Under the pieces are notes generated by a model. It did not search any database. It was not told the origin of the DNA and was given only the letters and a program-made list of their open reading frames with translations. Position numbers and translations under genes: made by a program. A stretch of 40,444 bases of DNA. It comes from a virus. Of this stretch, positions 2,077-28,878 are shown one piece after another. The number at the start of each line of letters is the position of its first letter. Position 1 is the first letter of the stretch. Location of the stretch: positions 1 to 40,444 of IMG/VR virus record IMGVR_UViG_3300006869_000022, one strand, 5' to 3'.

Positions 2077-5000
2077 CTAGAGAACAGTCTGAAGCTGCCG
2101 TGGGATGATGTTTGTCATGATAAAATTAGGAGGAGACATACCTGCTTTCTTGGCTGGCGCATAGTAAACTCTATTCATTCTATCATAAACTTTTTGAGCT
2201 TTTGGTTCTAGATCTGTACCATCAAACTCACCATTGATGTAACCCTTATACATCTCTAGTTTATTCATCTCACCTCCCGCTCTCTTATATAGATTAGTAA
2301 TCTGATTAGTAAGTGTTGTATCTGTCATAGCCTTTGCCAAGTCCTCAACATACTTCCTAGTGGGAGTATTCTTATTAAAGATGATCATATCTATGTATCC
2401 CTTTGGCTCGCTAGGTAAATCCTCTAGCCAATCAAAACTATTATAGATATCAACACCGGCTTTCCTTTGATCAGTAAACCACTTTCTAGCTGTCTTCGGT
2501 CCCCAGTTGTAAGCAGCAAGAGCTTTTGCTAAACGCACATTAGGATCCTGATTAGGTTTATTTATCCATTCACTGTTGTATAGTTTATTCATATACCACT
2601 TGTGAATAGTAGAATTCTGAACTGGATCAAATGGATCTACTTCTTTGACTTTAAATGCCTTCTTGTAATCTGTAATAACATCATCACCAATCTGACCCAA
2701 ACCTTTATAGCCTCCTTTATTTTCTACATCAGTCTCCCAGTTAGATTCTGCAAAAGCTTGCCTCCATAACATCTCAGATGGTATAACATCATTAGTTGGT
2801 ACATAAGGTTTCTTCACAGGAATATTAAGCTTCTGACCCAACGAAAGCTTGTCAATGTTTATATCAGGGTTAGCCTCTATAAAGTCTTCTCTGGGTATTT
2901 CCAATCTATTGGCAATGCCTAAAAAAGTATCACCTGACTTGACCTTATATACTTCTTGCCCTTCTTGAGCTTTAGGTAGTGGGCCGCCATTTTTTCTTGT
3001 AAAAAATATATCAGAATCTAATTGACGATCATTAATATATTTAGATGCTTCACCTTTACTGTTATAATAAGTTGTTCTAGACCTTGGTAATTTCATAAAG
3101 GTTCCTTCAAATGGCCTAGATAAATTAAACTCTTGCTTCAGCAAAGGAAGTATTTCTGTATTATAAGAAGGGACATTTCTATTAGGTTTTGGAATGCCTA
3201 CCCTACCCATTTGCATTCTAGACGTATTACCACCACTTAACCCAGCAAAACCTCTATTGCCAGATACAATAACAGATGGTTTATCAGTATCAAATAATAA
3301 ATGGTTATGTTGATTAGCCGGATCAAGTCCTCTATGGCGACCTAAATTAACTATATTATCTGGGTTCATTAATCCCTTATTTACCATATAATCTGCAACA
3401 GGTACTGTTTCTATTTTGTAATCAAAAAGTTCACCTCTTCTGTTAGTGTGAGTTAAAGACTGTCTTACCGGTTTTCCTGTAGGAACATTTGTTGCATAAA
3501 ACCCTTGCTGACCATAAGATCTTAAGTTTTTATCCCACTCCCCACTCGGATCATGAGCGGACCCATCATAAAAACGTTTGTCATAGTATCCGGTATATGT
3601 ATTTTTGACGGTCGTAGGACCTGGAGACTCAAGACTAAAAACATTATGTATGTTTAATTCAGGATCATCAAATATTTCTTGCATTCTTTTAGAAGGCGTA
3701 GCGTCTTTGCCAAGATTCATTTCAAACTTGGTCCTTGGATTCTTTCTTGAAAAATCTGCCAACTGATTTGCTAAAGCATCATCCGTGTTAAAATCTGCAT
3801 ACCGCTGAACAAAAGTGTTAAAAACATCATCAGCTGCCTGAGCCTGATTTACTTGAGAAATAGCACTGCGCTCATAATTTGTCAATGATATAAAGTCATC
3901 TCCACGTAATCCTAACTCATCAATGCCAAGATTGCTATAATCACCTGTACCCGCACCGCGTATATCTGCTGCAGGAAACTTTGATCTATATTGTTTTAAA
4001 AGAGAAGGCTTAGAAAATTTAGGAGTATAAGGAGAAGTGGCTAGTTTTTTTAGAAAACTACCAGGAATAAACGGTAAGAGAAAACCAGCAGCATTAAAAC
4101 CAGCATCTACATAGTCACCTCGCATTAAAGCTTCTCCAGTATTTTTTGCATCAATGTATTCACCTGCTACAGGGAACCAACCTGCTACTTCTTCATTATA
4201 AGTAATAGGTTTTAGACCTTGATCCGGAAACAAATCACCCCCAGGGCTTCTTCTCATGTATTCCTTCAACTGTCGTTCCTCTTCAGCTTTCAGAGCTGCT
4301 ACAGTGCTAGCGTTAAAAGCTTCACGTTGAGCAGGACTCAAAGTACTAAATGGATCACGAGGGACTAGATCTTGTGCTTTTAACTCTCCAGCCTTTTGCA
4401 TCTCAGGAATCTCTGTGTTGCTTGCCATTAGCTTGTCGGTAGAAACCTCTGGAGTTTTTTCAGAGATGGCTTTGTAATATCCTTCTATTCTCTTAGCATG
4501 TACATTACCACCCTGAGCATCCCCTGTTTTTAATGATGAAGGGCTCTGCCACCAATAACCTATCTTCATTGCATCAGACATGTTAGGGTCATTGCCTAAT
4601 GTCTTCATCTTTATATAGACATCTCCATCATCATCAATATCTGCTTGATATCTATTAGTGCCCGTTAAAGCATTTAAAGAAGTTGTAATCTTTTTTACAT
4701 TTTTTTCATTCCATCCAGGAATATCAGAAAAACTGACTCTATCATTTAACTCATCTAAGTAAACACCGGATCTATTAATCCTTGAAGATGAGGATCTTAC
4801 TAAATCTTTAAGCCCAGTGTTGTCATAAAAATTTCTAACACCAGGTTCTAGACCCTCTTCATACAACTTACTAGATCGTCTTCTGCCAGCATTTGTATAT
4901 ATCAATGTAGCAATAGCTGATTTTGCCGGGTCTCTTAAATCTGCTAATTGTTTAATCTTTTGAGGACCTCTAACACTTTCATTGAACATAGCAAGCTGAC

Positions 5001-6363
5001 GACTTAATACTTCATCATCTTTGATGTTGTCAAAGTTCAACTGAGTAAGACCTTGTGTGGAACCAGCCCAATCAACACTAAGACCACCCCCTCCTTCAGA
5101 TTCACCCATTGCCAATGCTATTGACAAATTTGCTAAGTCATCATACTCATCACTAGTAAGGCGTAGAGCTTCCATCATAGTCTCTTTGTTATCTTTAAGA
5201 GATTGGCTAAACTCCTGCATAGCCTCTTTATCTAGACGAGGTGCTCTAAACTTATCATCTTCTTTAATCCTAAACTTAGGATCTTGTCTAATCTCATCTA
5301 AACGATCAACATCAAACTGATACTCTGTAAAATAACGAGGTCTATAAAAGTTGTCAGATAGTTTAATGTTCTGAGGAGTAAGGCTAGCATAACTCTTTGG
5401 TACTCCTACTGTTTCAAGTTCGTAGCCTAGCGGTGAATTAGCTATTTGCTTTATAATATTCTCTTCTGTATCATATTTCTTTAGATATGCATCATAAAGA
5501 ATAATTTCTCCTTTTTCATTTACACCAACAGACATAACACTATGATGAGATGGTTGTAAACCATAATCAATATTAAATCCTTTTGCTCTTTGCCCATAAG
5601 GTGTATCGGTGCGACCCTTAGGACCAAAACTGTAAATAGATCCTATAGGGTATTGACCGGGTTGAAACTTTCCTGTAGGATCATCAATCTCTTTGTCATC
5701 AGATTCAATCTTTGCGCCCTCCTTATTCCTGTTATATAAAGTCTTACCTTCTGCACGTACTATGTTTCCTTGTATATCCCAACTATCCGCAGCACCCACC
5801 CCTCTATCACCATCCATCCATGGAAAGTCTTGTACTTGCTGCTTAGTTGGTGTGTTTTTAATGCTTGTTATATCCAGATCATCTTTTCCCCAAACATTAG
5901 CTGTATAGGGAACACCCGAGATACTACCCGCTGTTGCATCAAAAGCCTTTCTTGTGTTCTCCAAACAGTTACCTCCAAAACAACGCTCACTATTAAGAAA
6001 CTCTAGATCTTCCTCAGTTATTAGAAAGTCATGAAGATTAACCATCTCCTTTTCTTTTGACGGAGGATCTAATGCTAAGCCATCTTTAGCCATGGGAAGT
6101 TCAAATACCATATCTCCAGGAAACTTATAATCATTACCGGGAGTCATCATCTTAGAGTTCCCTAAATTGTCTGTACCTAGAACAGGGAAGTCCACACCCT
6201 TCATGGTAATGTCACCTGAAGGAATAATGTTAAAAGGGTTATCTACATCAGGGGAGTCTCTCTTATATCCCTGGGTAGAGAATATTCCAGTTGTATAAGT
6301 AAACATCTCATTGGGTCCACCAGGTAAACCTCTACGCTCTGACTTTTCGTATTTCCCTTTCAT
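2077..6363 (-). CDS. Multi-domain virion-associated cell-wall hydrolase / ejection protein (LysM + lytic transglycosylase)
   Basis: A roughly 1428-residue modular protein, probably packaged in the virion to breach the cell wall during DNA entry. Residues 50-95 hold a conserved-looking stretch with ITMKG, PVLGTDN and PGDMV. Residues 128-292 resemble an NlpC/CHAP-type cysteine peptidase or amidase, with a candidate Cys at about 134 and His at about 274-275 before a beta-rich GEIILYDA segment. Residues about 410-500 look lysozyme-like, with a Glu in AMGESEGG followed by TQGLTQLN. Residues about 725-772 are a Gly/Ala-rich hydrophobic stretch ending LLPFIPGSFLKK. LysM lies near 1135-1180 (YKVKSGDTF to LGQKLNIPV). 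A soluble lytic transglycosylase domain follows, with Glu in AFAESNWE, GLGQIG and the AYNWGP signature. The start is uncertain: the ATG at 6363 overlaps the upstream stop as TGATG, while a GTG at 6366 adds one residue. LysM and transglycosylase are secure; the other domains are weaker calls. Confidence 0.88.
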   Translation of the reverse strand: MKGKYEKSERRGLPGGPNEMFTYTTGIFSTQGYKRDSPDVDNPFNIIPSGDITMKGVDFPVLGTDNLGNSKMMTPGNDYKFPGDMVFELPMAKDGLALDPPSKEKEMVNLHDFLITEEDLEFLNSERCFGGNCLENTRKAFDATAGSISGVPYTANVWGKDDLDITSIKNTPTKQQVQDFPWMDGDRGVGAADSWDIQGNIVRAEGKTLYNRNKEGAKIESDDKEIDDPTGKFQPGQYPIGSIYSFGPKGRTDTPYGQRAKGFNIDYGLQPSHHSVMSVGVNEKGEIILYDAYLKKYDTEENIIKQIANSPLGYELETVGVPKSYASLTPQNIKLSDNFYRPRYFTEYQFDVDRLDEIRQDPKFRIKEDDKFRAPRLDKEAMQEFSQSLKDNKETMMEALRLTSDEYDDLANLSIALAMGESEGGGGLSVDWAGSTQGLTQLNFDNIKDDEVLSRQLAMFNESVRGPQKIKQLADLRDPAKSAIATLIYTNAGRRRSSKLYEEGLEPGVRNFYDNTGLKDLVRSSSSRINRSGVYLDELNDRVSFSDIPGWNEKNVKKITTSLNALTGTNRYQADIDDDGDVYIKMKTLGNDPNMSDAMKIGYWWQSPSSLKTGDAQGGNVHAKRIEGYYKAISEKTPEVSTDKLMASNTEIPEMQKAGELKAQDLVPRDPFSTLSPAQREAFNASTVAALKAEEERQLKEYMRRSPGGDLFPDQGLKPITYNEEVAGWFPVAGEYIDAKNTGEALMRGDYVDAGFNAAGFLLPFIPGSFLKKLATSPYTPKFSKPSLLKQYRSKFPAADIRGAGTGDYSNLGIDELGLRGDDFISLTNYERSAISQVNQAQAADDVFNTFVQRYADFNTDDALANQLADFSRKNPRTKFEMNLGKDATPSKRMQEIFDDPELNIHNVFSLESPGPTTVKNTYTGYYDKRFYDGSAHDPSGEWDKNLRSYGQQGFYATNVPTGKPVRQSLTHTNRRGELFDYKIETVPVADYMVNKGLMNPDNIVNLGRHRGLDPANQHNHLLFDTDKPSVIVSGNRGFAGLSGGNTSRMQMGRVGIPKPNRNVPSYNTEILPLLKQEFNLSRPFEGTFMKLPRSRTTYYNSKGEASKYINDRQLDSDIFFTRKNGGPLPKAQEGQEVYKVKSGDTFLGIANRLEIPREDFIEANPDINIDKLSLGQKLNIPVKKPYVPTNDVIPSEMLWRQAFAESNWETDVENKGGYKGLGQIGDDVITDYKKAFKVKEVDPFDPVQNSTIHKWYMNKLYNSEWINKPNQDPNVRLAKALAAYNWGPKTARKWFTDQRKAGVDIYNSFDWLEDLPSEPKGYIDMIIFNKNTPTRKYVEDLAKAMTDTTLTNQITNLYKRAGGEMNKLEMYKGYINGEFDGTDLEPKAQKVYDRMNRVYYAPAKKAGMSPPNFIMTNIIPRQLQTVL

Positions 6364-9300
6364 CACCTGAATGATAAATTAAGTTTGGTATTATTTAGCT
6401 TCAACAGCATCTTTCTATCTGCTGAAATCCTTCTTGTTAATAAGAACTTGTTATAGTAATGTCTAAACTTTTTTCTTTCAAAAGCAGACTTGCTATAATC
6501 TAAGTTGCCAGAGTTTAAATCTCTGATATAACCATTCCGGCGTGTTTTAAATATCTCTTGCTGAGCATTTGAAAACTCACCTCTATCATGGGTAGTATCC
6601 CAGAATTGATTAATACGATATTTCTGTTCAACTTTTGATGAGAGTATTTCAATATCTGAAAGATTCACTTTTGGATACTCTAATCCTTTCATCGGATCAT
6701 TCTTGAACTGATTGTGGATTCTTAGTAATCCAGACACTTGTTCTGTGTTATGAACAATCAGCTCATCAAAGTTGAAATCAAGATCATGCCATCTGTCATC
6801 ACCACACCCATCGTGCAGATCTCCTTTATAGACGTAAGACTCTAACTGATATTCTAAACTTCTAACAGTGTTTACATTCTGACCTGTGTTTTCTACTAAC
6901 TCTACTTCCCATGGATAATCTACACCATAGTAGTTAGCAAACAAATCACACCTATAGTTATGTCTCCATATACCAGAACCTGTAGTTACGGCAGGTGTAA
7001 TATCCTCATAAAAGAAACTACAGATAACTGGATTAGGGTTTACATAGTTAGGATCTCCATTAGGTCCTGCTTTATAAACATCATCACAGTTACCAATCTT
7101 CGTTGTGAGTCCTTTAGGATTTATAGGAGGAGGACATTCACACCCAATCTTTCTACATATAGGTGGATTAACATCATTACAGTCACCTGTTGGTTCTGTG
7201 TAACCATTGTTGCCCGGATATACTAAAGTGTAACCCGTTGGACAAGAGCATGAAAAAGAACAAATAGAGTTAATAATCTGCTGTGCAACATAATCTGTTT
7301 TCTGGTCATTCAATGGCTGTTGCGAAAGAATGATATATTGATTCTGTCTGTTTGGTGTATTAGCATCACCAGTAAGATTATCTAAAATATCATTTCCGGT
7401 AAAAGGATAAATACCCTGAGTTGCATTAGCACAATCATCAGATATTTTAATATTGCCTTGACTATCAAAAACATCCTGATTCTCCCCACACCATACAGTG
7501 TAGATATACTGATTGGCTGGACCACCACCACCTAGAAGACTGCTTTGATATGTCATACCAATTGAAGAACCACCAGCCCGGCAATTATTTTTTTCATTAA
7601 AGCTGTTTGGAGGGCTGGTTGTATTAGCTCTACAACGAGCATCTGTAATAACTATTACCGCCTGAATAAAATTAGCATTACCACTTCTATCACCAAGTTC
7701 TGTAGTACTCTTAGAATTTAAAACTTCAAACGCATTATATATACCACGACAGAAATTGGTTTTTTGTCCGCTAGGATCTAATGTGTTATAGTAAGCTGTT
7801 GCACTAGAACTAAAACCTAATCCATCAATAACAGTGTCAGGATCAAAAGTATTAGCCATAGTCTTTTGAACATTGCCACTAGTTCTTAGATTCATAAAAG
7901 TGCTTTCTGCACTACCAAAAGCTGTAAAGCCCATTTGTAATCTACCAGAAGATAGAGCTGACTGTACATCAGAATTGTCTAAAAAATCAGAAATAAACTG
8001 ATGTTGATTTTTAAGAATTGATTGTTGATTTGCATTTGTACTTGCAGAGTAGTCCATGCATAATACCAAATCAATATCACAAGTCTGTGTCTGTAGATTA
8101 GCAAGTACCTCTTCTACATTTACAATTGCTGGGGCAGAGTCACCAATAGTTATCTCACAGTTTTGAGTTACGGGATTATAACTATACCCTGGTGGACAAT
8201 ATGGTTGATCTAATTGCTTTTCCTTTGTTGTTAGGAAATGATTAATGCTAGGCATGCACAGTTCTGGATGCCAATCATGGAATGAGATCCAAGCCTTAGC
8301 TTTAGGGTCATAGCTTACAGTCCAAGATACATCCTCAAAGTAGAGAGGATCTCCTAATGTAATCTTAGTACTTAGGATAGGTGCATCGTCATTTACCTGC
8401 GGCTGCAGTACAAAACCATTGAATGTAAAACCATTCTGTACTGTATAGTTGACCTGATCTTTATACTGGTCTTTAACCCTAAAGTCTCTCTTACAGAAAT
8501 ATACTACATCATTATTTACATCATAGATAGACTGGCATCCTACACCGACTACAGGATTATCTGCTAATGGTGTTTCTTCTAATGCTGGAAACTGCTTAAT
8601 CAACTGAGATGGTAAGTACTTATTGAACCACCACTTCATACCATTATTAGCAATGTTCTCTAGCTTACCTGTGTAATGGAATATCTTACCCTGAGCCTGT
8701 GATATAAAGAACACACCCATAGGTGTATTAATTACAGTCCTATGACTCTCACATGATCCATACTCATTAGATAAATCTGAGTTTGTAATGTTCTGGAAAG
8801 GTTGGCTAAATAAACCACCATCACCTATAGTAAGCTTAGTACCTAAATCTGTCTTCAGTGTATCCAGACCTTGAAACATCTGAGGTGACTGGTATGGGAA
8901 TAATACTAAGGCACCGCTCTTATTAATAGGCTTGATTACATTGATAGGATTCTTAAAATCCTTGTAGTTGTTTGGTAAGAAAACTCTCCAGAAATCTTTC
9001 TTAGATTCTGTCTTGGCCTGAAGAGAGTATATTAATCTCTTAGGGTAATAACTAAAACAATCTTCAGCAACCTTAGGATCGTAATCTCTAGTTTGAACCT
9101 CTCCAAAATTAGATATCTGAGTGAGGAACTTTGATACACTCAGAGAGATATCATACTTATAGTAGTTGTCCTTCTTGATTATGTCTGCATGAAATAAATC
9201 ATCCGTGTTAGCATACTCATAAGGATCATAGAACCTCTTGTCCTGAGCTTCCTCCCAATCTCTTTGAGCTAGGTTATACTCTGACTCTACAAAGAAGTCC

Positions 9301-12300
9301 TGAATACCATTGACATGAGTATACATATACCCATATCGCATAGCAAAAACAGGGTTGGGATCATTATCGCCGTCAAATATATTTAAGCTTCCATGAATGC
9401 TTGCATTATGTCTATCTAAATAGAATAGATCTGATGGTAAAGGATCACTTGTTTTGGGTAAAGACAGACCAACAATCTCGTTTGCCAAACTAGTCATATC
9501 AAACTTCCGCGTATCCATCCAATATCTTGGGTATGGAATGTTTACACGCTGCAGGTAATCATAAGTATATTGATCTGGCTGACCATTTAAAAAGTCAGCA
9601 AAGATTGGCATAATGGTTTTCTCAGTATACCTGTTGATATATACATCACCAGCAAATATAGGAGAAGAAGAAAATTTAGTTTGAGGATTATTAGCTGATA
9701 CTAGTTCTATTGTACCACGCATCTGAACCTGCTTAATGCCATCAAGTTGACCATACTGATTCTCAGCGTCAAACTTTAAAGCACCATAAACTGCTGAGAT
9801 ATCTCTCTTTTGTTCTTGCTCAGGATTCCTTAAATATTTATTAGCTACGGACTCAGAAAATGGACCACCGCCATCTCCACTAATAACATATCTTGATTTA
9901 TCTACAATACTAGGATCATCTATATTATCTGTAGTAGCAACTGCTACGGTATCTGGTCTAAATAGATTATTAATCTTAAAACCATTAAAAGCCTGATATG
10001 TACTACCTATATAGTTTGAGTCTTCATTTCTAGTCCTATACACTTGACCATTTGGTCTAGTAGTAAATGTATCATAGAAGCCGTGAGAGTTATGCTTAAA
10101 TGCAAAATCCTCTTCCTTGATAAGACCATAGATTAACTCTATGATTTCATTTCCACCATCTGCAATATTGAAACGAGCAATAAAATAACCAAAGGCTGCT
10201 TGTAAAAACTTTGGAAGGTTGCCACTAGGATGTTCAACTTTAAATCTCTCAATATTCTTACCAGAGTCTGTACCTGGTGTTCGAGAAGCTAAAGTAAGAT
10301 TTTTACCTTGCCCAAAGCTCATCGTAAGATCAACAGCTCCTTGTCCCAACCAAATAGTGCTTATATCGACTACATCTTGTAGTAATATCTCTCCTAGCAA
10401 ATCAAACAAACTACCTACCCCAAGATTAATACCTTGTTCTGCACTAATTGTTTCGTATAGAGCACCTGTACCTGGTGGGCCAACAAAAGGTACATATGGA
10501 ACAGACGCTCCACCACCTACACCGAGAACATCAACATCTAAATAATCATTAGCAACAAGATTATTATTTATACTTAAACCTTGTAGTTCAGACTCCTGAG
10601 TTCCTCTTATTCTTGAAATTGCATAGCCAATCCCAATAATACTGGCAATGATGGATGCAATATTTCTGATTAATTTATTCTGAGGATGATTCTCTGACTT
10701 AATAAAATGCCCTACAGATGTACCGGAAAGATCTCCATATAGTCTTGTCTCATAAGCATTCAAGAAAGGTCTTTTGAACATCAGCTCTGGTGAGTGGAAT
10801 GTAAAGAACTTCTTAGCTACACTTGTAAGTGGTTTAAAGTCGTCAATAGAATCAGCATACTTCTGAGTACCATCTGTTCTATGATCATCTCTTCTCTGAC
10901 CATCATGGAAATAAACATCAGGTCTTAGATCATTGTATGGATAGTTTGGATAAAGACCTACAGGATTACCCCCGGTCTGCCCACCCTCAGGAATATTGTA
11001 CTTACGCATATTCCTAAATATTCCCTTGGCTAGGATAGACTTTTGTCCTTCTCTTGAACCTCGTAAGATCTCATAGCCAACTATATTTGGTATGACAGTG
11101 CCATCATTAAACACCGGAGGTTTGATATCACTGAACTGTACACCCAGCACTCTAATCCTACTATTAGAATCATTTGTCAAGTGCAACTCAGGCCCACGTT
11201 CTTCAGTTGGCATCTTATGATGGCGGATATACTTACCACATAAATCAAAGCGAGAGTCTCCGGTACCACCAATGTTTACTCCTGTAGTTACATCTGTGTA
11301 AGTAGCATTCCAGATTTCAGGTTGTGTTGCAGGATACTTCTCTGTAGACTGCCAGTAACTCATCTCACCCTTGGCAATAACCAAACCTCCATCCCCTGTA
11401 GGATTATTTAATCCTGTCGCCTGAATGGTAGATGTATCGTATACCTGAAAGTTCTTTTCTCTAGAGCTTAAAACATTGAGACCTCCGCCACCTGCTAGAC
11501 CATCTTCACTACTATTGATCTGCTCATTAAACTGATTTCTAAAAGAACTCTTTGGCGGTCTGCCTGGAATATGATAAGACTTAGATCTTTCACCAGTATT
11601 ATAAATCCATCTGATAAAGAAAGCATACTGCTCATCACGCATAAAGCCGGTGCTGTTACCTCCCTTACGATAATACTCAGCAGGATATTCAGCAACTACC
11701 CATTCAGTCTTAATCTGATTAGCTCTGGGTTGATAGTTAAAATCAAATTGTTCTGTAGGACCTTTACGTATAAGCCAATCATTAACAACAAACATTGCAT
11801 CTGACTTCTCATACGCAGGGCTTCTAGCTGGCAATAATTCTAATGGGATACTGACTAATGACTGATCTATATAGTCAACAGAAATAGAACTAGTCTCAGT
11901 GCTATACAACCCAATCTTCTTGGCTGCATAATTATTTGCGTTGTTGCTAAGAATAACTAATTCAAAAAACTCAAAGTCTTTATCCAGATTAGACACCTTA
12001 ATATCCAGAGACCCTGCAGTGCCGTCATGATCAAAAAGACTCTGCAGATTAGATACACCAATATAGTCTGTTACTCTCTGCTCATTTACAGTATAAGCTA
12101 TATAAGCTTGATACATACCATTCCTTAAAGATCCTCCATCGGGAGCTTTGGAAAGTTTGACAATAGGAGTGTCAAGAAGAGGTGCCAATCTGAGTTTCTC
12201 ACAATCTAGTATGGTCGTATCTTCATAGATAACACAATCATCACCAGGTGTAGAGGTAACAGTTTGCTGGTAAGGAATATTGTCTAGATTAAGAGTACGA

Positions 12301-12737
12301 GACGGGTTTCTCCCATCATCCCAGTATACTTGCCAACTGCAGTCAAAGTTCTCTTTTGCGGCACCTTGAATTAAATTCTCTTTGTTGAAGTTAAGACACT
12401 TGGAATTGACCAAAGTCTTATACTCGCATTTACTATCATCAAAGAGACCTATCTCAGAGTTAGTATTATCAGTGGTATACAGCACCCACTCATCTGCATA
12501 TAAATGCACTGTTCCAATAACTGTATATGGAACTACACCACAGGCTAAGTTAGCTGGTTCGTTACCCAGTACTCCTACATCACCGTCTGTAGAATTGTTT
12601 GCAGCGTTTCTTGCGTGAGTCCAAGATTGTTTGGGTTCGTAACTAGGATTGATATCCTTGTTCATACCCTTCACAAAAACATTAGTCTCTACAGAGTCAG
12701 CACCTTTGTTCTGAATATTTTGTTTCTTCTTAGCCAT
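6363..12737 (-). CDS. Giant muzzle/stabilisation-type tail protein with an inserted von Willebrand A domain
   Basis: A 2124-residue protein, the largest in the window. The N-terminus (NVFVKGMNKDINPSYEPKQ, then TDGDVGVLGNEP) resembles the stabilisation/muzzle proteins of crAss-like phages, which form the outer end of the short tail. The last 200 residues (GIWRHNYRC, WEVELVENTGQNV, RINQFWDTTHDRGEF) look like the conserved end of the same family. Between them, residues about 1505-1920 look like an insert. It has a CPPGYSYNPVTQNCE Cys-rich element, then a vWA domain with a full metal-binding MIDAS set: D1562-x-S1564-x-S1566, T1660 in GQKTNF and D1699 in VIVITDA. More Cys-rich sequence follows (CSFSCSCPTGY, CECPPP). 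vWA domains bind ligands through a divalent metal, so a receptor-binding role is plausible. The ATG at 12737 follows the upstream stop by 11 bases. Confidence 0.85.
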   Translation of the reverse strand: MAKKKQNIQNKGADSVETNVFVKGMNKDINPSYEPKQSWTHARNAANNSTDGDVGVLGNEPANLACGVVPYTVIGTVHLYADEWVLYTTDNTNSEIGLFDDSKCEYKTLVNSKCLNFNKENLIQGAAKENFDCSWQVYWDDGRNPSRTLNLDNIPYQQTVTSTPGDDCVIYEDTTILDCEKLRLAPLLDTPIVKLSKAPDGGSLRNGMYQAYIAYTVNEQRVTDYIGVSNLQSLFDHDGTAGSLDIKVSNLDKDFEFFELVILSNNANNYAAKKIGLYSTETSSISVDYIDQSLVSIPLELLPARSPAYEKSDAMFVVNDWLIRKGPTEQFDFNYQPRANQIKTEWVVAEYPAEYYRKGGNSTGFMRDEQYAFFIRWIYNTGERSKSYHIPGRPPKSSFRNQFNEQINSSEDGLAGGGGLNVLSSREKNFQVYDTSTIQATGLNNPTGDGGLVIAKGEMSYWQSTEKYPATQPEIWNATYTDVTTGVNIGGTGDSRFDLCGKYIRHHKMPTEERGPELHLTNDSNSRIRVLGVQFSDIKPPVFNDGTVIPNIVGYEILRGSREGQKSILAKGIFRNMRKYNIPEGGQTGGNPVGLYPNYPYNDLRPDVYFHDGQRRDDHRTDGTQKYADSIDDFKPLTSVAKKFFTFHSPELMFKRPFLNAYETRLYGDLSGTSVGHFIKSENHPQNKLIRNIASIIASIIGIGYAISRIRGTQESELQGLSINNNLVANDYLDVDVLGVGGGASVPYVPFVGPPGTGALYETISAEQGINLGVGSLFDLLGEILLQDVVDISTIWLGQGAVDLTMSFGQGKNLTLASRTPGTDSGKNIERFKVEHPSGNLPKFLQAAFGYFIARFNIADGGNEIIELIYGLIKEEDFAFKHNSHGFYDTFTTRPNGQVYRTRNEDSNYIGSTYQAFNGFKINNLFRPDTVAVATTDNIDDPSIVDKSRYVISGDGGGPFSESVANKYLRNPEQEQKRDISAVYGALKFDAENQYGQLDGIKQVQMRGTIELVSANNPQTKFSSSPIFAGDVYINRYTEKTIMPIFADFLNGQPDQYTYDYLQRVNIPYPRYWMDTRKFDMTSLANEIVGLSLPKTSDPLPSDLFYLDRHNASIHGSLNIFDGDNDPNPVFAMRYGYMYTHVNGIQDFFVESEYNLAQRDWEEAQDKRFYDPYEYANTDDLFHADIIKKDNYYKYDISLSVSKFLTQISNFGEVQTRDYDPKVAEDCFSYYPKRLIYSLQAKTESKKDFWRVFLPNNYKDFKNPINVIKPINKSGALVLFPYQSPQMFQGLDTLKTDLGTKLTIGDGGLFSQPFQNITNSDLSNEYGSCESHRTVINTPMGVFFISQAQGKIFHYTGKLENIANNGMKWWFNKYLPSQLIKQFPALEETPLADNPVVGVGCQSIYDVNNDVVYFCKRDFRVKDQYKDQVNYTVQNGFTFNGFVLQPQVNDDAPILSTKITLGDPLYFEDVSWTVSYDPKAKAWISFHDWHPELCMPSINHFLTTKEKQLDQPYCPPGYSYNPVTQNCEITIGDSAPAIVNVEEVLANLQTQTCDIDLVLCMDYSASTNANQQSILKNQHQFISDFLDNSDVQSALSSGRLQMGFTAFGSAESTFMNLRTSGNVQKTMANTFDPDTVIDGLGFSSSATAYYNTLDPSGQKTNFCRGIYNAFEVLNSKSTTELGDRSGNANFIQAVIVITDARCRANTTSPPNSFNEKNNCRAGGSSIGMTYQSSLLGGGGPANQYIYTVWCGENQDVFDSQGNIKISDDCANATQGIYPFTGNDILDNLTGDANTPNRQNQYIILSQQPLNDQKTDYVAQQIINSICSFSCSCPTGYTLVYPGNNGYTEPTGDCNDVNPPICRKIGCECPPPINPKGLTTKIGNCDDVYKAGPNGDPNYVNPNPVICSFFYEDITPAVTTGSGIWRHNYRCDLFANYYGVDYPWEVELVENTGQNVNTVRSLEYQLESYVYKGDLHDGCGDDRWHDLDFNFDELIVHNTEQVSGLLRIHNQFKNDPMKGLEYPKVNLSDIEILSSKVEQKYRINQFWDTTHDRGEFSNAQQEIFKTRRNGYIRDLNSGNLDYSKSAFERKKFRHYYNKFLLTRRISADRKMLLKLNNTKLNLSFR

Positions 12738-12748
12738 AGTTCACCTTG

Positions 12749-13627
12749 TTACACAGGATAACTCTTGAACATATTATAGTAATTGTGATACTGCGCTCTT
12801 CTGTTTAACCACCAGATCTTCTGCATCTCTTTAAAGTCTGGAGTATTTACAAATCCAAGTGCGTTATTTCTTGCAGCTCTCAGGCGTCCCTCTATTAGAC
12901 CTAATTGATTAGCCACATTCTCTCCGGCAAAAACCATGTTCTCAAGAATCCTCTGCTTCAAGGCATACTCGTAGTATTCATTGCAATAAGGATGGTCCAG
13001 TACAAGCAATCTTCCTTGAGAGTCTTCCATGGCTCCTTGGAAACTAATATATACTTTACCTGTTGTAAAGTTTGTAAGAAGATAACCGTCTTTTATTTCA
13101 GCAATATCTGATGCTTGCTCTCCGACATTTGGACAATCACAAGTAGCATCATTTACATTCTGTATCCTCAGAGGATAGAATGCAGTGTAAGTTCTATACT
13201 CTCCGCCACCAATCTTCTGAACTAACTGATACTGATTCTTGTCTTCACAGGTCTTAATAACACATACTTCTTTACATTCCGGATCATCACATGGTCCGGA
13301 CTCATCTGGAGCTGGTACATAAGGCACAGGGTTATCTGTCTCTACATGTGTACCAGAGGGCATCTGAGTAGAGATGCTATAGTCACCACACATAAAAGCA
13401 TAATTCAAAGAGAAAAAGTCACTTGGAAGCTTGGTCTTGCCATGCTCTACATCCAGCACCACTTCTTTGGTTCTATTGATTCTTAAACCAAGATCATAAT
13501 TTACTCTCGTTGCAACTTTAATTAACTGCTGAGGTTCAATCATCCCCTCCATTGCATATGTAGAAAAATCTACTGTTACATCTTCAAGTAACTGATCAAA
13601 AGTTCTATACTTATGTGATACGCTCAT
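12749..13627 (-). CDS. Putative ring/connector-type tail protein
   Basis: A 292-residue protein with the look of phage connector or tail-ring proteins. A helical N-terminus is followed by a beta region (EHGKTKLPSDFFSLNYAF) and a C-terminal helical part beginning LVLDHPYCNEYYEYALKQR. In crAss-like phages proteins of this kind stack between portal and muzzle, and here the gene lies directly before the muzzle-type gene. A middle segment (about residues 110-165) carries clustered cysteines (CDDPECKEVC, CDCP) that could bind metal or form disulfides and look like a surface insertion. The ATG at 13627 sits 3 bases after the preceding stop. Ring identity is inferred from context and general pattern. 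Confidence 0.65.
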   Translation of the reverse strand: MSVSHKYRTFDQLLEDVTVDFSTYAMEGMIEPQQLIKVATRVNYDLGLRINRTKEVVLDVEHGKTKLPSDFFSLNYAFMCGDYSISTQMPSGTHVETDNPVPYVPAPDESGPCDDPECKEVCVIKTCEDKNQYQLVQKIGGGEYRTYTAFYPLRIQNVNDATCDCPNVGEQASDIAEIKDGYLLTNFTTGKVYISFQGAMEDSQGRLLVLDHPYCNEYYEYALKQRILENMVFAGENVANQLGLIEGRLRAARNNALGFVNTPDFKEMQKIWWLNRRAQYHNYYNMFKSYPV

Positions 13628-13920: not shown

Positions 13921-14451
13921 TTAGTGTGCTTTAGCTTGAATAACAATCCATCTTGTTCCATCGGACCAAAGAGTAATACCTTCAAAATGTTGATTAATCT
14001 GATAGTTGGAGCTGCTTTCATCTATAAACTGACCATTAAAGGTTACAAGCTCAGCATGATTGCTTCCCTGCATAGAGGCATCGGATATAAAACGAATAAC
14101 TCTATACTTGTAAGCTACTGATGTTGCATCTGGTAATAGCACTTGATAGGTAGCATTTCCAACTTGTGTGTGCTTTAGATAAATCATCCAGTCATCAGAA
14201 GCTGTAAGATCAAATACATCTCCACCACTACCTTCAATCAATCTAGGTATAATAAACTTTGTATCCTGGATTACATAGGATTTTAAATCCTTTGCCTTTA
14301 TCAAATTAGAATCAGCCTCAGGTTCTGGTTTTAATTCTTTCTTTACAGTTTTAGTTCTTTTACTAATAAAAAAGAAATCTTCATCACTAGGAATAGATAT
14401 AAACAACCTACGTTTAATCATTCCCATTATGTCTTGTAAAATATTACTCAT
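13921..14451 (-). CDS. Fibre-like virion protein with shared N-terminal anchor (copy 1)
   Basis: 176 residues. The N-terminal 60 or so (MSNILQDIMGMIKRR, then LIKAKDLKSYV) match the start of the 222-aa protein at 15170-15838 (MNNILTDILGMLKRR, then ITKAEDLVKYV), while the rest does not. This pattern, a constant N-terminus with a variable beta-rich C-terminus, is typical of proteins that dock on the virion and present different tips. The C-terminal part has short beta-strand-like segments (YRVIRFISDAS, HAELVTFNGQF) and ends in GITLWSDGTRWIVIQAKA, reminiscent of phage fibre end domains. It overlaps the upstream gene by an ATGA junction. Fibre or head-decoration role is inferred. Confidence 0.72.
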   Translation of the reverse strand: MSNILQDIMGMIKRRLFISIPSDEDFFFISKRTKTVKKELKPEPEADSNLIKAKDLKSYVIQDTKFIIPRLIEGSGGDVFDLTASDDWMIYLKHTQVGNATYQVLLPDATSVAYKYRVIRFISDASMQGSNHAELVTFNGQFIDESSSNYQINQHFEGITLWSDGTRWIVIQAKAH

Positions 14452-14690
14452 CTCTTCTTGCCTTTATGTAGTCCATGTTTTGCATGCTGCTTACCTTTTT
14501 TAGTAGCAGCACGTTTCTTTTTATTAGCAGCAGCTAACTTCTTTCTACCAGCTGCAGTACTCTTAAGCTTTCTGATAGTAGCAGACGGCGCATACACTTC
14601 TCCTGTCTCAGAAGATTTCTTACCAGAAGGTGTTCTCCACTTCTGCTTAGTCCATCTATCTAAACTCTTTTGCCTTGCCGTCTTTGCCAT
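14448..14690 (-). CDS. Small lysine-rich protein of unknown function
   Basis: 80 residues, extremely rich in Lys and Arg. The N-terminal half has a recognisable pattern, KSLDRWTKQKWRT followed by GKKSSETGEVYAP, that I associate with tiny basic proteins widespread in aquatic phages and some large viruses; the function is not known to me. The C-terminal half is mostly Lys, Ala and Gly. It is coupled to its neighbours: the start overlaps the preceding stop by one base, and its stop overlaps the next start by four bases. It is very likely translated as part of this operon. Confidence 0.7.
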   Translation of the reverse strand: MAKTARQKSLDRWTKQKWRTPSGKKSSETGEVYAPSATIRKLKSTAAGRKKLAAANKKKRAATKKGKQHAKHGLHKGKKR

Positions 14691-14956
14691 TACTTGCTAT
14701 GTTTCTTTTGGATCTTAAATTTAGCTGTTAATGACGCACCAGGATGCTTTACAAATTTGCCAGAGTGTTTCATCAACTTATATCCAGATCCGTCCTTCAT
14801 CCAATGAAAACCCTCAGGAGCTTTTACAGACTTCATGCTAGTAGATCCACCTTTCTTATAAACACTCTTAGCCATAGGTTTTGCACCCTTAGGTTTCTTA
14901 CCCTTCTGCTTCATATTCACTGCTATTGCAGCTTGTTGTTTTCTAGAACTAGCCAT
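14690..14956 (-). CDS. Small basic protein of unknown function
   Basis: 88 residues, basic. The first 30 residues carry KQQAAIAVNMKQKGKKPKG. The last 45 contain APEGFHWMKDGSGYKLMKH and a GKFVKHPGASL segment that looks like a compact beta domain repeated in small phage proteins I have seen without a named function. It overlaps both neighbours by one base (TAATG junctions), which indicates translational coupling. It is the third member of the four-gene basic cluster. Confidence 0.7.
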   Translation of the reverse strand: MASSRKQQAAIAVNMKQKGKKPKGAKPMAKSVYKKGGSTSMKSVKAPEGFHWMKDGSGYKLMKHSGKFVKHPGASLTAKFKIQKKHSK

Positions 14957-15857: not shown

Positions 15858-16553
15858 TTATCTATGAACACTCTGTTTGTTATCTGCATCTTCTGCAGGC
15901 ACTTTTACTGTATTAAATATTACCGCAAGTACCTGCTGTTCAATCTCAGCAAATAAAAACTCCGGTACAAAAAACTGTTGTAAGTATCTAGGTACACAGT
16001 TATCATCTTCATCACATGTCCATCTAGATATGTCACCTTCAAATACCCCCTCCAACTTAATAGCATCCCATTCAATATTAGGCATATATAGATAGCCATT
16101 TAAGTACCAGTAATACTTTGTTGTATTGTACTTAAAAGAGGTTGTTTTAGACATTGAGGTATAAGTACCTGGATTTGTAGGCTGTAACTCTATAGATCCA
16201 TCTAAAGAACTAACAGTTCTAATCAGAGGACCCCAGTATCCTTCCATAAATGTTGGAAGCTTTTCCTTAGTTCTCTTGATTGTACAACCACTTGCTATAC
16301 CAGAACAGCTAGCTTCAACTCTATCTACCTCAATCAAGTTTAAAAATGGAAGCGTCTGCCATACACTATTAAACTTCATCAGTTTATTAGCACTATCCTG
16401 CCTACGCATAAGCAGCTGAGCAAACTTTAAAATAAGGCTATATATGTAGCGGTCAGTAACAAAAGCATCTTGCACCTCTGCTTTTACCTGTCCTCTGACT
16501 CTTGATACTACATCTCCTATTGTTGTCATTCTCTTAGCTTTCAAATTCATCAT
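15858..16553 (-). CDS. Putative tail ring/connector protein
   Basis: 231 residues from the first ATG, which overlaps the upstream gene by 20 bases. An internal ATG at 16529 (MTTIGDVVSRVRG, 223 aa) leaves a 4-base gap and may be the true start. The helical N-terminus with RYIYSLILKFAQLLMRRQD and the later beta part (TKYYWYLNGYLYMPNIEWDAIKLEG) ending in EFLFAEIEQQVLAVIF resemble the ring proteins between portal and tail hub in crAss-like phages. The family call rests on pattern and on its place between conserved virion genes. Confidence 0.65.
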   Translation of the reverse strand: MMNLKAKRMTTIGDVVSRVRGQVKAEVQDAFVTDRYIYSLILKFAQLLMRRQDSANKLMKFNSVWQTLPFLNLIEVDRVEASCSGIASGCTIKRTKEKLPTFMEGYWGPLIRTVSSLDGSIELQPTNPGTYTSMSKTTSFKYNTTKYYWYLNGYLYMPNIEWDAIKLEGVFEGDISRWTCDEDDNCVPRYLQQFFVPEFLFAEIEQQVLAVIFNTVKVPAEDADNKQSVHR

Positions 16554-19030: not shown

Positions 19031-22000
19031 TTATGATGGCCAGGCTGGACTTGCAGGAGAAGTACTGTCCGGGCATAAATCATCATGTCCAACAAACATA
19101 ATTTTCATCTTCTCTTGGAAGTCTCCGTCATCAGTACCATTATAAATCGCAGTTAAATACTCTGCAACAGTAAGAGATCCAACAGGTTGATTCAAGAACA
19201 TAAGAACACTCTTCTTATAAAGTCCTTCTAGTGTAATAGCTCCAGTGCTAGCCCCTTCATATGGGTTAGTGGCAGATGGTGTTACACCCTGCATCAAGTA
19301 TCCTGTAACATCAACAGCCGTTCTAACACCATACTCGCTCGGAGGAGTCATTTTAGCTGTATAAGATGCCAGACCTTGTAAGATTGCAGAAGCTGATTGA
19401 CCTGCAGTATCTGCAGTAATCGGATAATATACCACCTGCATTCCTGCTGTAAATGGGGATGTGCCTCCAAAAGCCTTTGCTACTCCATAAGCGCTATTAG
19501 CTGAACCGGTTAAAATATCAGTATGAATCTCATAGTCCTCAAGATAATTAGCTGTAGGTTGTGTAGGTGAACCAAAACCACTGCTTAAAGTAGCGCCATG
19601 ATACTCAGGATTTGTATTATTAGAAAATACAAGAATATTAGCTCTAGTCGTAGGAGCTGCTAAAGGAGCGCTTCCCCAACCGGTAGGTAAGTCTTGAATA
19701 GCAACCCACTCTGATGCACCATCAAGCGGAGCTCCAACAGCACCTGTAGCGCTTTGCCCATTTTCAACAACAGCAGTTGAATACTGTAACCATCTTCGAC
19801 TAGTGGTTGGAATTAAAAAAATCTCACCACTCCAAGCTGTACAAACTAATGCAAGCCAAGCCTCCAGCCTAGCCTTAAGAGATTCAAACGTAACTGCATC
19901 TGTTACACTAAAGCTATTTGTATCAACAAACATATAAAAATCATCCTCTGTCTCTGAAACCTGAGCACCTAAAATCTCAGGCTGAATAATCTGAACTTGA
20001 ACAATTGCAGTGACAGAAGAACAATCTCCTGCTGTGTCTGAAGTCAATCTAACCTCAAATGTATCTCCATATGAAGAAGCTCCGTTATGGGTATAAGTAA
20101 AGGTATTAGCATCGGTTGGGCTCTGAGTTACAGTTCCGTACTGAGGATTAGCTACAATACTTAAGGCTGGTTCACCGTCACCAATGACATATGGAATTTC
20201 AATAGTAGTGCTTGATCCACTGTTACAGAAGTACCCAGATGTAGTGCTTGTTAGTAAGAAAGCGGGGCATTCGCAACATGCCACAACTTTTGTAACTGTT
20301 TCTGTAGCATCACTCCAGCCAGCATAGATATATTGAGTAACGCTGTTAACTTCAATCTTTCCAACATAGTACCAAACACTCTCTGATAGATTTCCACCAG
20401 GAATAGTCTCGGTAAGTGTGCCACATGTAAGTGTACCGTATGATACAAAGAAACCAGAAGGTTGGCTTGTTAAGAAACTTGGAGTATCATTCGCAGGATC
20501 CTGGATAGTTGTAGTCTGATCTGTGTTAAAATCATAACGTACAATAGTGTATTCGCTATAATTAGAACCACCATCATTCTGACGAGCTCTAACATAAATG
20601 GACTTAGTTGTAATTCCAGTTGCAATAACTATCCCATTATCAGGATTAGTGGTAGTAGATCCTCCATTTGTCCACGTAATCATATCTGCACTATAGTCAT
20701 ATATGATAGTAGTAGGTGTCCCTGTGCCTCCGGTATTACGTTCTACATTAATAGTTACATTACCACCAGCAGTCACACTAACAACAGTTAGATCAGGATT
20801 AAATAATGACACCTCACCAACCTGTCTAATAATGCTATTTCCGGGTCTATAATAAAATCTTTTAGTATTTTCGACAGTTCCTGTCTGACCAATGTAATAG
20901 TCACCAGCAACAGCGGCTTCGTCTAAAGCATCTGTGATTGCAAGAGAAGTACAACTAACACCAAGTGTAGTTGTCGCACCTAAAGTGCAGGCCCTCTGCT
21001 GTTGTGTGCTTAAATCTGTAATATTAATCTGGATAGTATAGAGTGTTGCCGAAGATAATCCTGTGAATGTGTAAGAAATGTTAGCACCAGGATTTGCAAT
21101 AGTTGTTGCAGCAACAACATTTGGTCCTTGATTACAAGTGATTCTATAAGTATAATTTGAACCAGTTAAGCTGTTAGGAAAAGCAACTACAATCGAGTCT
21201 GTACTAGGTGTTAAAGTAGAACTAGTAGGACATGGAATGCCAAGTGGTATAGTAATATTCTTGATCTCTTGACATACATTATTATTATCCGTAGCACAAA
21301 GCTGTGCAACAACAGATAACGAATATGTCAGTATAAGATTAGAGTTGGTTAGATCAATGTTTACACCTACTGAACTAGATGCTAAGTTTGCAGCATTGAT
21401 AGATTGTGAAATCTTAGCTCCACTAGCATCAGTAATCTCAATAAATGAATTACCGCAATCTGTAAAGCCACTTGGAACAGTTGAACCATTCAAGTTAAAA
21501 TTGATAGTTGTAGGTAATCCGCTTACAGGATCTGTGACTACATTATATGTCATAGCCCATGAAACAGCACTGCAATCCGATACACAACAGTTCTGTTGAA
21601 TATTAGCAACAGCATCATAGATGTCGCAAATAGCCACCCACTGGTTAGCATTAATATCTGCTAATGTATTTGGATTCTGAATCCACCCTGACTGACTACC
21701 ATAAGTGCCACCCTGACTTAACATGTTAGATGTTCCAGATAAACAACTTGCGTTAATGGCAAAGTTGATAGCTTGAGCATCACCAACTGCCGTTCTCAGA
21801 TTACAAAACTCTGTTTCAAGAGCTAATAATAATGTAGATACGGGAACAGTCTGGCCTTGTAAAATACAAGAAGATATTACTTCTGACGTTGGAGAAGCAA
21901 TTGGAAAATAACTTTCTACAATAGAGAGACGACTAGCAATATCAAAAATTTGATTATTAATAATATTGATAGCGCTCTTTATAGTACAAATCTCATTTGC

Positions 22001-27258: not shown

Positions 27259-28878
27259 TTAGAATGATCCGCCTGTAACAGGGTTTCTCATAACGATCTT
27301 GAGAACCTTGGTTGGATCCTTCACCCAGATAGCTGGCATGGTTTGAGTCATCATAACTCTGTAACCATTAAAGTTACCGGTAGAAGCAAATCCTTGGCTG
27401 CGACCCATGTAGTCCATAGTACCATTCTGGTAGAACCACTTCAGTTGATTATCCCAAGAAAGCTTCAAGAGATAGATGTTGTCATTTCCTTCCTCAGTTA
27501 CATCAAAGATGATGAAGCTGTAAGAGCTCAATGGACGTCCATCAATCAAAGGATTCTCAACGTCATTAGTGTGCAGGTTGTCAAACGCTGGGTTCAAGAC
27601 AAACTTAACGTTAGCCAAGAATGGAATGGTGAAGCTTGTGTAAGCAAAACCAAAGTCAAGATCCATTCCAGAACCTGAAACAGCACCAATGTCAGAAGCA
27701 TTCTGTACGAGACCAGAACCATAAACCTCATCAGCGATAGCTTTGTTGATCAACTGCATACCACCGATACCTGTTTGAACAACAAGCTTTCTCTGGGGGT
27801 CTGGACCCTTGAATTCAACTTTACCCTGGTAGAAGTTGTAAAGCTCAGACTTGAACATATCCAATGTGAACTGAGACTTGTTATAAACTCTCTTGAAAGA
27901 GTTGTCTAACTGAGACCAAAGACCAACAGACAGTCTGATATCATCTGGACCATCTTGCTTGATTCTACCGCCTTTACCCCACATCAGGTAAGTTTCGATG
28001 TCATTAGCAATCTTAGATAAGTGAGCCGCTTCGAGATTAGTGATAAAGGTTCTTGTCAAAGTACCATTATCAAAGGCGTCTCTAGCACCTGCCTTACCCA
28101 TGTTTGCAACCAACTGCTCAATGCTTGAAACAGAAGGATTGTTAGGATCCTGGTTAAAGTTTCTCCAGATCTCGGTTACAGGTACAGTACCGTCAGCATT
28201 CAAACCACCCTTGATCATAAGATCAGCACGGCTAGAAATAGAATAGTGTACGTGTGCCTCAGCGCCTCCTACAAAGTTGTAGAACTCTCTGAATCCAGAA
28301 CCGGTCTCAATGTCTGAGAACCTCTCACCATACTCACCACGTGCAGAACCTTTTCTGAAATACTTTGTGCCAGATACCAAGTACTTGCTAGCATCCAAAG
28401 TAGCAGAATTATCATTGTTCACAAGCTGAACGGTATAGATAAACCCGTCACCAGCTGGAAGAATGTCATCCGCAGTGATGTAAAGTTCAAGACCATTGTA
28501 CTTGTCATAAGTGATGATATCACCATGACCAAATGATCTCTTAGATAATTTGATCTTGAAAGTTGTACCGTCTCCACCGAGATTAGTGTCACTTTCGATG
28601 TTTCCTACAGAGAAAGGAAGATCCTGTGCTACAGGAGTCTGCCACTTATACTCACCGCGAGCATTGTCTACAAGAATTGTATTCTTCCCACCGAAAGAAG
28701 CCATCTGATACAAAGGCATTTCTACCTTCTGGGTCATAGCCCAAAGATCAACTGGTCCCATATCCATAGGCTCAGCAGAACCGAGCATCTGGGTAAGGTG
28801 ATAAGAATCAACATGAGAACTAGCCTTATAGCTTGTATCTCTGAGGAAGATTCCGTTGTTTAAAACTGGAGTTGCCAT
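27259..28878 (-). CDS. Major capsid protein
   Basis: 539 residues, matching crAss-like major capsid proteins in size and position: after portal and scaffold-like genes and ended by a strong terminator. The N-terminus (GIFLRDTSYKASSHVDS, then an NTILVDNARGEYKWQTP segment) and the body (GGAEAHVHYSISSRADLMIK, FKRVYNKSQFTLDMFKSELY, KLVVQTGIGGMQLINKAI) are what I associate with that family. An HK97-like fold is assumed from the family; it cannot be read from the sequence. The start has an A/T-rich upstream region without a clear Shine-Dalgarno. The leader holds a (TGAT)4 tandem repeat, and no copy of the promoter 12-mer was found before it. Confidence 0.87.
   Translation of the reverse strand: MATPVLNNGIFLRDTSYKASSHVDSYHLTQMLGSAEPMDMGPVDLWAMTQKVEMPLYQMASFGGKNTILVDNARGEYKWQTPVAQDLPFSVGNIESDTNLGGDGTTFKIKLSKRSFGHGDIITYDKYNGLELYITADDILPAGDGFIYTVQLVNNDNSATLDASKYLVSGTKYFRKGSARGEYGERFSDIETGSGFREFYNFVGGAEAHVHYSISSRADLMIKGGLNADGTVPVTEIWRNFNQDPNNPSVSSIEQLVANMGKAGARDAFDNGTLTRTFITNLEAAHLSKIANDIETYLMWGKGGRIKQDGPDDIRLSVGLWSQLDNSFKRVYNKSQFTLDMFKSELYNFYQGKVEFKGPDPQRKLVVQTGIGGMQLINKAIADEVYGSGLVQNASDIGAVSGSGMDLDFGFAYTSFTIPFLANVKFVLNPAFDNLHTNDVENPLIDGRPLSSYSFIIFDVTEEGNDNIYLLKLSWDNQLKWFYQNGTMDYMGRSQGFASTGNFNGYRVMMTQTMPAIWVKDPTKVLKIVMRNPVTGGSF

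Follow-up and report, generated by a model that had tools for sequence, protein, structure and literature searches.

A von Willebrand A domain at an exchangeable site in the muzzle protein of uncultured crAss-like phages

The muzzle protein encoded in a 40,444-nucleotide stretch of viral DNA (IMG/VR record IMGVR_UViG_3300006869_000022, referred to hereafter as the window) carries a large insert that is predicted to fold as a von Willebrand A (vWA) domain with an intact MIDAS metal site. Computational analysis established the fold, the conservation of the MIDAS and the site of the insert in the muzzle and, among relatives, the loss of the domain, its replacement and, in two cases, the exchange of its alleles. 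We consider it probable that the insert is an exchangeable payload of the muzzle for adhesion to the host surface, in which the vWA domain would hold a metal and bind a receptor ligand.

The muzzle gene and its setting

The open reading frame at 6363-12737 (minus strand) is identified by sequence as the gene for a crassvirus muzzle protein, in agreement with a preliminary description of the window. It matched PF25731 (crAss_MUZ) with E 3.1e-33 and 115.5 bits, above the Pfam cut-off of 27, and phrog_37948 with E 3.3e-45, and full-length relatives are present in IMG/VR. A capsid protein together with multiple ring proteins was taken as the mark of the Crassvirales; in the window PF23898, PF24228 and PF25702 all scored above their Pfam cut-offs.

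6363..12737, minus strand: crAss-like muzzle (tail) protein, 2124 aa (PF25731 crAss_MUZ; phrog_37948; full-length IMG/VR relatives)
12749..13627, minus strand: ring protein 1, context (PF24228, E 6e-8)
15858..16553, minus strand: ring protein 2, context (PF25702, E 3.1e-16)
27259..28878, minus strand: crassvirus major capsid protein, context (PF23898, E 4.9e-31)

Directly downstream of the muzzle gene, positions 2077-6366 (minus strand) encode a 1429-aa protein with LysM and SLT domains, and two small, very basic proteins of 80 and 88 aa lie amid the tail genes at 14448-14956 (minus strand).

A phmmer search of the whole muzzle against the PDB returned only a short cysteine motif resembling contryphan (E 0.32), which we put down to chance. 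A full-length muzzle profile did not recover gp44, the muzzle of phiCrAss001, from the PDB by sequence; gp44 was compared instead through the phiCrAss001 record, an HMM alignment and a model of a relative (L076).

A vWA domain with a conserved MIDAS, nested in a cysteine-rich neck

The insert comprises residues 1506-1920, bounded by PSINHFLTTK and GIWRHNYRC, and consists of a vWA domain (1553-1825) flanked by two Cys-rich segments, which we term the neck. Its position in the muzzle is called site B.

8082..8222, minus strand: N-terminal Cys-rich neck segment, residues 1506-1552, CPPGYxxNPxTxxCE (conserved cysteines; pLDDT mostly above 90)
7263..8081, minus strand: vWA domain, residues 1553-1825 (AlphaFold2 model; PDB matches by Foldseek, VIA-align and the family profile)
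8040..8054, minus strand: MIDAS motif D1562-Y-S1564-A-S1566 (D, S and S each kept in 46/47 representatives)
7758..7760, minus strand: MIDAS T1660 (kept in 45/47 representatives)
7641..7643, minus strand: MIDAS D1699 (kept in 45/47 representatives)
6978..7262, minus strand: C-terminal Cys-rich neck segment, residues 1826-1920 (conserved cysteines; pLDDT mostly above 90)

Searched alone against Pfam, the insert of the window matched VWA_2 with E 0.012 and 16.6 bits, below the cut-off of 27. The gathering score of PF00092 or PF13519, which is a detection threshold and not a property of the domain, was thus not reached by the insert's own sequence, and a PF00092 search of the window's record gave no match, so that the sequence of the window is by itself insufficient to settle the identity of the domain. 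Among single members of the family, nine of 43 matched VWA_2 and eight of 43 matched VWA at E ≤ 0.01. A profile of the 43 members, searched against the PDB, matched PTMP1 (E 0.0013), a MIDAS-bearing protein of the mussel byssus.

An AlphaFold2 model of residues 1480-1935 had a mean pLDDT of 80, with 208 of 456 residues at 90 or above and the vWA core mostly above 90. Foldseek matched the model to the vWA domains of SpaC, PTMP1, complement, integrin and anthrax-receptor proteins. Alignment with VIA-align gave Z 17.7 to the CMG2 vWA domain (2.6 Å over 177 residues) and Z 16.7 to an integrin I domain. In the model, the core of the insert has the Rossmann-like alpha/beta vWA fold. Model, Foldseek matches, structural alignment and family profile therefore agree with the preliminary description, which had read a vWA domain with an intact MIDAS and Cys-rich edges from the letters alone.

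All five MIDAS ligands were found in the window's muzzle at the residues originally named, with the codons of D1562, S1564 and S1566 at nucleotides 8052-8054, 8046-8048 and 8040-8042. The five ligands span 138 residues. Among 47 vWA representatives clustered at 90% identity, each of the first three was kept in 46, and T1660 and D1699 in 45 each. The hydrophobic-DxSxS motif ended at insert residue 60-73 in every one of the 69 site-B inserts labelled vWA, while in a control with shuffled inserts the motif was present in 74 of 3450.

Conservation was measured on alignment A1, which holds 43 of the 47 representatives (the degenerate L038 and L049 and the divergent L062 and L065 were left out) and to which all entropy and length figures refer. 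The vWA domain had the lowest mean pairwise identity (0.395) of the seven muzzle regions measured; the scaffold stood at 0.742 before the insert and 0.707 after it, the two neck segments at 0.486 and 0.502, and two other parts of the muzzle at 0.492 and 0.666. The invariant cysteines lie mostly in the two neck segments. The segment with DxSxS and the loop behind it varied in length from 7 to 42 residues. We had considered variability confined to the metal face, the pattern of a ligand site, but the picture is not clean, as the alpha5-betaE loop also varies (6 to 53 residues).

The MIDAS is degenerate in relatives L049 and L038, both of which lack the DxSxS, T, D pattern, and in the second vWA domain of L136 and L148. 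The site-B domains of L038, L136 and L148 form a subfamily with QADDST at the place of DxSxS that probably lacks a metal site. The degenerate domain of L136 and L148 is one of two in the insert, the other being a jelly-roll or an intact vWA domain next to it.

Site B lies in the propeller part of the muzzle

The HMM alignment placed site B between the phiCrAss001 gp44 matches at 1121-1205 and 1232-1283, and by eye it falls near residue 1235 on the gp44 sequence, where gp44 has nothing. A model of L076 with its payload (mean pLDDT 73.7) was then superimposed: both site flanks aligned to gp44 1064-1371 (7qol_P) with Z 16.8 and 2.8 Å over 249 residues, a match that holds for the C-terminal part and for this relative rather than for the window. 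In PMC10172136, IG2 including the crass domain of gp44 is given as residues 318-1021, which puts site B in the propeller or the ring-joining part. By sequence alignment and modelling, site B is in the propeller part of the muzzle and not in the distal crass domain. The tail-tip placement given in the preliminary description is therefore true of the muzzle protein and unproven for the vWA domain.

Occupancy of site B in related muzzles

Relatives were collected from four IMG/VR scans, with contigs overlapping between scans, and from three annotated phages; they are the nearest relatives and not a random sample. The upstream flank was found in 186 ORFs and both flanks in 184, of which 113 were distinct. 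As 184 of the 186 stay in frame across site B to the downstream flank, broken copies are rare. In 23 of the 113 distinct homologues the flanks were joined by only 2-13 residues, and these were scored as empty. Labels, assigned by insert length and then by hand, were as follows.

vWA: 68
vWA + degenerate vWA: 1
degenerate vWA: 2
jelly-roll: 7
jelly-roll + degenerate vWA: 1
metzincin: 2
L048 type: 2
L073 type: 2
neck only: 5
empty: 23

Two of the rows labelled vWA, L115 and L140, had no vWA HMM match at 1e-3 and were labelled by their DxSxS motif, in L140 with the further backing of a Pfam match at E 0.0021. Pfam was run on selected payloads among the 113, and one step of the analysis took 63 of 79 rows, leaving out 5 with an empty site, 4 with the neck alone and 7 with another payload. 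The insert is not part of the muzzle core: some muzzles have nothing at the site, five keep both neck segments without the vWA domain, and others carry a different domain there. The preliminary description, which had seen the insert as an interruption of conserved tail-protein parts, was right on this point. The insert in this muzzle is real. It is not peculiar to the phage of the window: uncultured crAss-like phages that form a large group typically have it.

In the L076 model the payload resembled carbohydrate-binding jelly-rolls, a lectin and the phage Chi tail-tip protein (Z 8-9), which supports, with moderate confidence, a jelly-roll identity. A PA14 label was also tried for the alternative payloads of this type and given up, its Pfam matches being weak (L136, E 0.0044; L044, E 0.097) and the structure pointing to carbohydrate-binding jelly-rolls more generally. 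The metzincin motif HExxHxxGxxH was present in three of the 113 homologues, in L187 and L171 at site B and in L123 at site A, and all three inserts matched Pfam Reprolysin. Profile A3, when searched against the PDB, gave only an EGF-like match (E 0.059).

Site A is a second loop just upstream of site B.

8337..8465, minus strand: site A loop, about residues 1425-1467, short in the window (at least 323 aa in 17/113 homologues)

Its length was 24-99 aa in 96 of the 113 homologues and 323-862 aa in the remaining 17. A payload of 323 aa is found in the muzzle of Cellulophaga phage phi4:1, a cultured relative whose record states that this muzzle was detected in virions by MS/MS. Scanning of site A payloads revealed a vWA domain above the PF00092 cut-off in L132, L135, L141, L168, L065 and L119; in the first three of these, site B is empty.

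Three related muzzle genes (L194, L195 and L196) are on contigs of metagenome-assembled genomes (MAGs) labelled Campylobacteraceae and Pseudomonadales. This placement is likely to reflect binning errors and would otherwise hint at hosts outside Bacteroidota. Genome contigs were thus uninformative as to the host, since the three loci come from only two MAGs, which belong to different groups.

Gain, loss and replacement of the payload

A tree of the muzzle core was built without sites A and B (113 rows, 1230 columns) and rooted at its midpoint only; several of its outer branches are long. One branch of 95 rows (support 100) contains all rows with a payload at site B. The 18 rows outside it are all empty, as are five rows inside it. 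With all labels considered, the minimum number of label changes was 16. This would be consistent with a gain of the payload at the base of the 95-row branch, followed by several losses and replacements; given the midpoint root and the long outer branches, the history is a reading of the tree and not a proof.

Loss could be followed at the DNA level. The comparison of L074 with L077 revealed an in-frame gap of 672 nt, by which the vWA domain is gone and the neck is left; the remaining insert was identical at 463 of 519 aligned bases. Site B is empty in the close kin L026, L029, L031, L036 and L182, indicating that the vWA domain is dispensable for some phages. Deletion in L074, along with the degenerate metal site of some copies, would be compatible with an insert that is a tolerated passenger of little function, spread through recombination. 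Such a passenger would not be expected to keep five ligands over 138 residues in 45-46 of 47 representatives at a mean identity of about 0.40, nor to stay in frame through site B in 184 of 186 ORFs, and we give this explanation almost no credence.

vWA alleles have been exchanged between near-identical phages

Core identity was at least 0.85 in 47 pairs of phages, and at least 0.950 in 20 of them. Both members carried a vWA domain in 19 of these 20, and in six of the 19 the vWA identity was below 0.70 (the value for L167/L168 was disregarded because different domains were compared). The six pairs represent three cases.

In the first, L007 and L008 had a core identity of 0.965 and a vWA identity of 0.45. 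Their DNA was 97.3% identical over 11.76 kb and, after a gap, 96.6% identical. The unmatched block (11760-12470 in L007, 12636-13232 in L008) began immediately after the DxSxS motif and covered the rest of the vWA domain. The vWA domain of L007 was nearest to those of L018/L042 (0.77) and the domain of L008 to that of L011 (0.82), whereas core identity was 0.67 for L007 and L018 and 0.73 for L008 and L011. In the second case, L022 had core identities of 0.967 and 0.976 to L017 and L033, with vWA identities of 0.60 and 0.59, and its vWA domain was 0.87 identical to that of L024; blastn aligns across the block in L022, so this case rests on protein identity. The third, L023 compared with L019, L020 and L150 (core 0.95, vWA 0.69), is ambiguous and could reflect fast divergence; no donor of the L023 vWA domain was found among the sampled phages, the best identity being 0.691. 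Control pairs without exchange (L018/L042, L052/L011, L017/L033 and L002/L001) had vWA identities of 0.90-0.97. Over 903 pairs, vWA and core identity were moderately correlated (Spearman 0.45). We conclude that vWA alleles were exchanged between phages in two cases, L007/L008, which is clear by DNA, and L022, by protein. Exchange is expected where a domain contacts a partner that lies outside the virion and varies, and its occurrence between near-identical phages adds new evidence that points to a receptor role.

The exchanged blocks could also be chimeras of metagenome assembly rather than natural alleles. All vWA-bearing site-B sequences found are metagenomic, and searches of 50,697 annotated phage records (E 0.01) and of PHROGs gave no match to the insert of the window or of L077. 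Against this, the two clear cases lie on different contigs, both affect the vWA domain and both preserve the reading frame, and the exchanged alleles recur in other phages, which makes chimerism very improbable.

The vWA domain is not the sole variable part. Residues about 700-900 also varied in close pairs (for example, 35/50 differing in L018/L042 and 36/50 in L007/L008), and in both L074/L077 and L007/L008 there was a further unmatched block just beyond the muzzle gene, about 1 kb in length in L007/L008. The latter block could encode a partner that changes together with the vWA domain. Many vWA domains act within complexes, and the domain might be an assembly or docking part of the virion, its MIDAS binding a neighbouring tail protein, a fibre or cargo. 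There is a precedent in SU10, whose short tail fibres are docked by a loop connected to the propeller of the nozzle (PMC9509320). In the L007/L008 comparison, however, the 11.76 kb preceding the vWA block matched without any further gap of this kind (a partner elsewhere would escape), and the domain is lost in close kin and its place taken by unrelated domains. Docking within the virion is unlikely on this evidence.

Proposed role of the vWA domain

Adhesion to the host surface accommodates these observations as follows. The Cys-rich neck (1506-1552 and 1826-1920) would emerge from a loop of the propeller part, with the vWA domain nested inside it. The phiCrAss001 muzzle is a hexamer (PMC10172136), so that in the virus of the window six vWA copies may surround the tail. 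Through a divalent metal bound at the intact MIDAS, each would coordinate an acidic group on its ligand, most likely a protein of the host-cell surface. Binding could contribute to host choice and perhaps to the triggering of ejection: the muzzle closes the tail, must open upon contact and is the gate of genome release (PMC10172136), and a displayed, metal-dependent vWA domain bound to a host surface protein might help to start its opening. Relatives would have deleted the vWA domain and kept the neck, swapped in a diverged vWA allele, or come to carry a jelly-roll or metzincin instead. That the domain is lost, exchanged and replaced among relatives suggests that it helps to choose the bacterium to infect. 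It may not be the main receptor binder, as phiCrAss001 has separate tail fibres (PMC10172136).

The same features bear on a target other than a receptor. Matrix and adhesion proteins, such as PTMP1, collagen VI and integrin I domains, are among the nearest vWA folds, Ig-like capsid domains have been proposed to bind mucus, and exchange and loss are also compatible with changing habitats; the domain might tie the phage to particles, mucus or eukaryotic matrix and so hold virions near their hosts. The function of the muzzle as the genome-release gate (PMC10172136) favours cell contact instead, and replacement by a protease or by carbohydrate-binding-like domains suits a bacterial surface at least equally, so we regard attachment to non-host targets as improbable.

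A wider reading can be offered tentatively, with the chances for and against it nearly balanced. In this large group of uncultured crAss-like phages, two neighbouring propeller loops would serve as docks for payloads, and phages would alter their host range by exchanging a neck-borne MIDAS adhesin cassette, for which carbohydrate-binding-like domains and metzincin proteases would be the alternatives. The ejection gate itself would then be a metal-dependent receptor sensor. Little is known of how crAss-like phages choose their hosts, and for most of them no host is in culture. In the present case one compact, exchangeable domain stands out; a near-identical pair that differs mainly there, together with natural deletions as controls, makes the recognition target of the muzzle directly testable. 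The vWA allele also offers a genomic marker for host switching, and the inserts add an integrin-like metal site and a protease to what is known of the equipment of phage tails.

Comparison with known systems

One of the closest known systems is the phiCrAss001 muzzle gp44 (PDB 7QOK/7QOL), a member of the same family (PF25731). Length variation in the gp44 family is described as arising from insertions in the crass and IG2 regions (PMC10172136), whereas the payload of the window is a recognisable vWA domain near gp44 1235. A crassvirus protein annotated as vWA-like is also known, phiCrAss001 gp52, with the motif DTTGS. It differs in being a free-standing protein of 255 aa, encoded beside the RNA-polymerase genes and not in the muzzle, and it has little similarity to the muzzle vWA profile (5.8 bits).

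The pilus-tip proteins SpaC, RrgA and Mfa5, the integrin I domains and PTMP1 have in common with the window the fold and the five MIDAS ligands, and in such MIDAS adhesins, too, the domain is inserted in a larger display protein. Unlike these, the vWA domain of the window belongs to a protein of the virion and sits within a Cys-rich neck, and muzzle vWA domains are exchanged, lost and replaced among relatives; identity to the known adhesins is about 10-17%. VWA is listed among the domains linked with tail fibres of eCIS (PMC12923769). The receptor-binding domains of phage and eCIS fibres are likewise exchanged on a conserved scaffold, but here the scaffold is the gate-forming muzzle with its two adjacent docking loops. 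The SU10 nozzle has a seven-bladed propeller with a loop that carries adhesion parts (PMC9509320). SU10 docks a separate fibre protein, while in the window muzzle the presumed adhesin forms part of the same polypeptide.

No paper that combined the terms crAss-like and von Willebrand was found in the open-licence PMC literature, nor, in the portions of that literature accessible to us, was a description of a vWA domain in a muzzle; in PMC8651126, vWA refers to CobT. With no matching record or paper, and with VWA known from eCIS fibres and a fibre-docking loop from SU10, the insert is a case of known parts, a familiar domain and the modular principle of receptor binding, combined in a new way and at a new location.

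A domain related to a site A payload outside the muzzle

The C-terminal domain (19031-19969, minus strand) of a further gene of the window, the 1122-aa ORF at 19031-22399, is related to a site A payload. A search of this domain for a vWA-like fold gave no PDB match. It matched phrog_37948 with E 5.5e-11 and was 27% identical (E 3e-16) to the 323-aa payload that the muzzle of Cellulophaga phage phi4:1 carries at site A, which indicates a module common to another gene and a muzzle dock.
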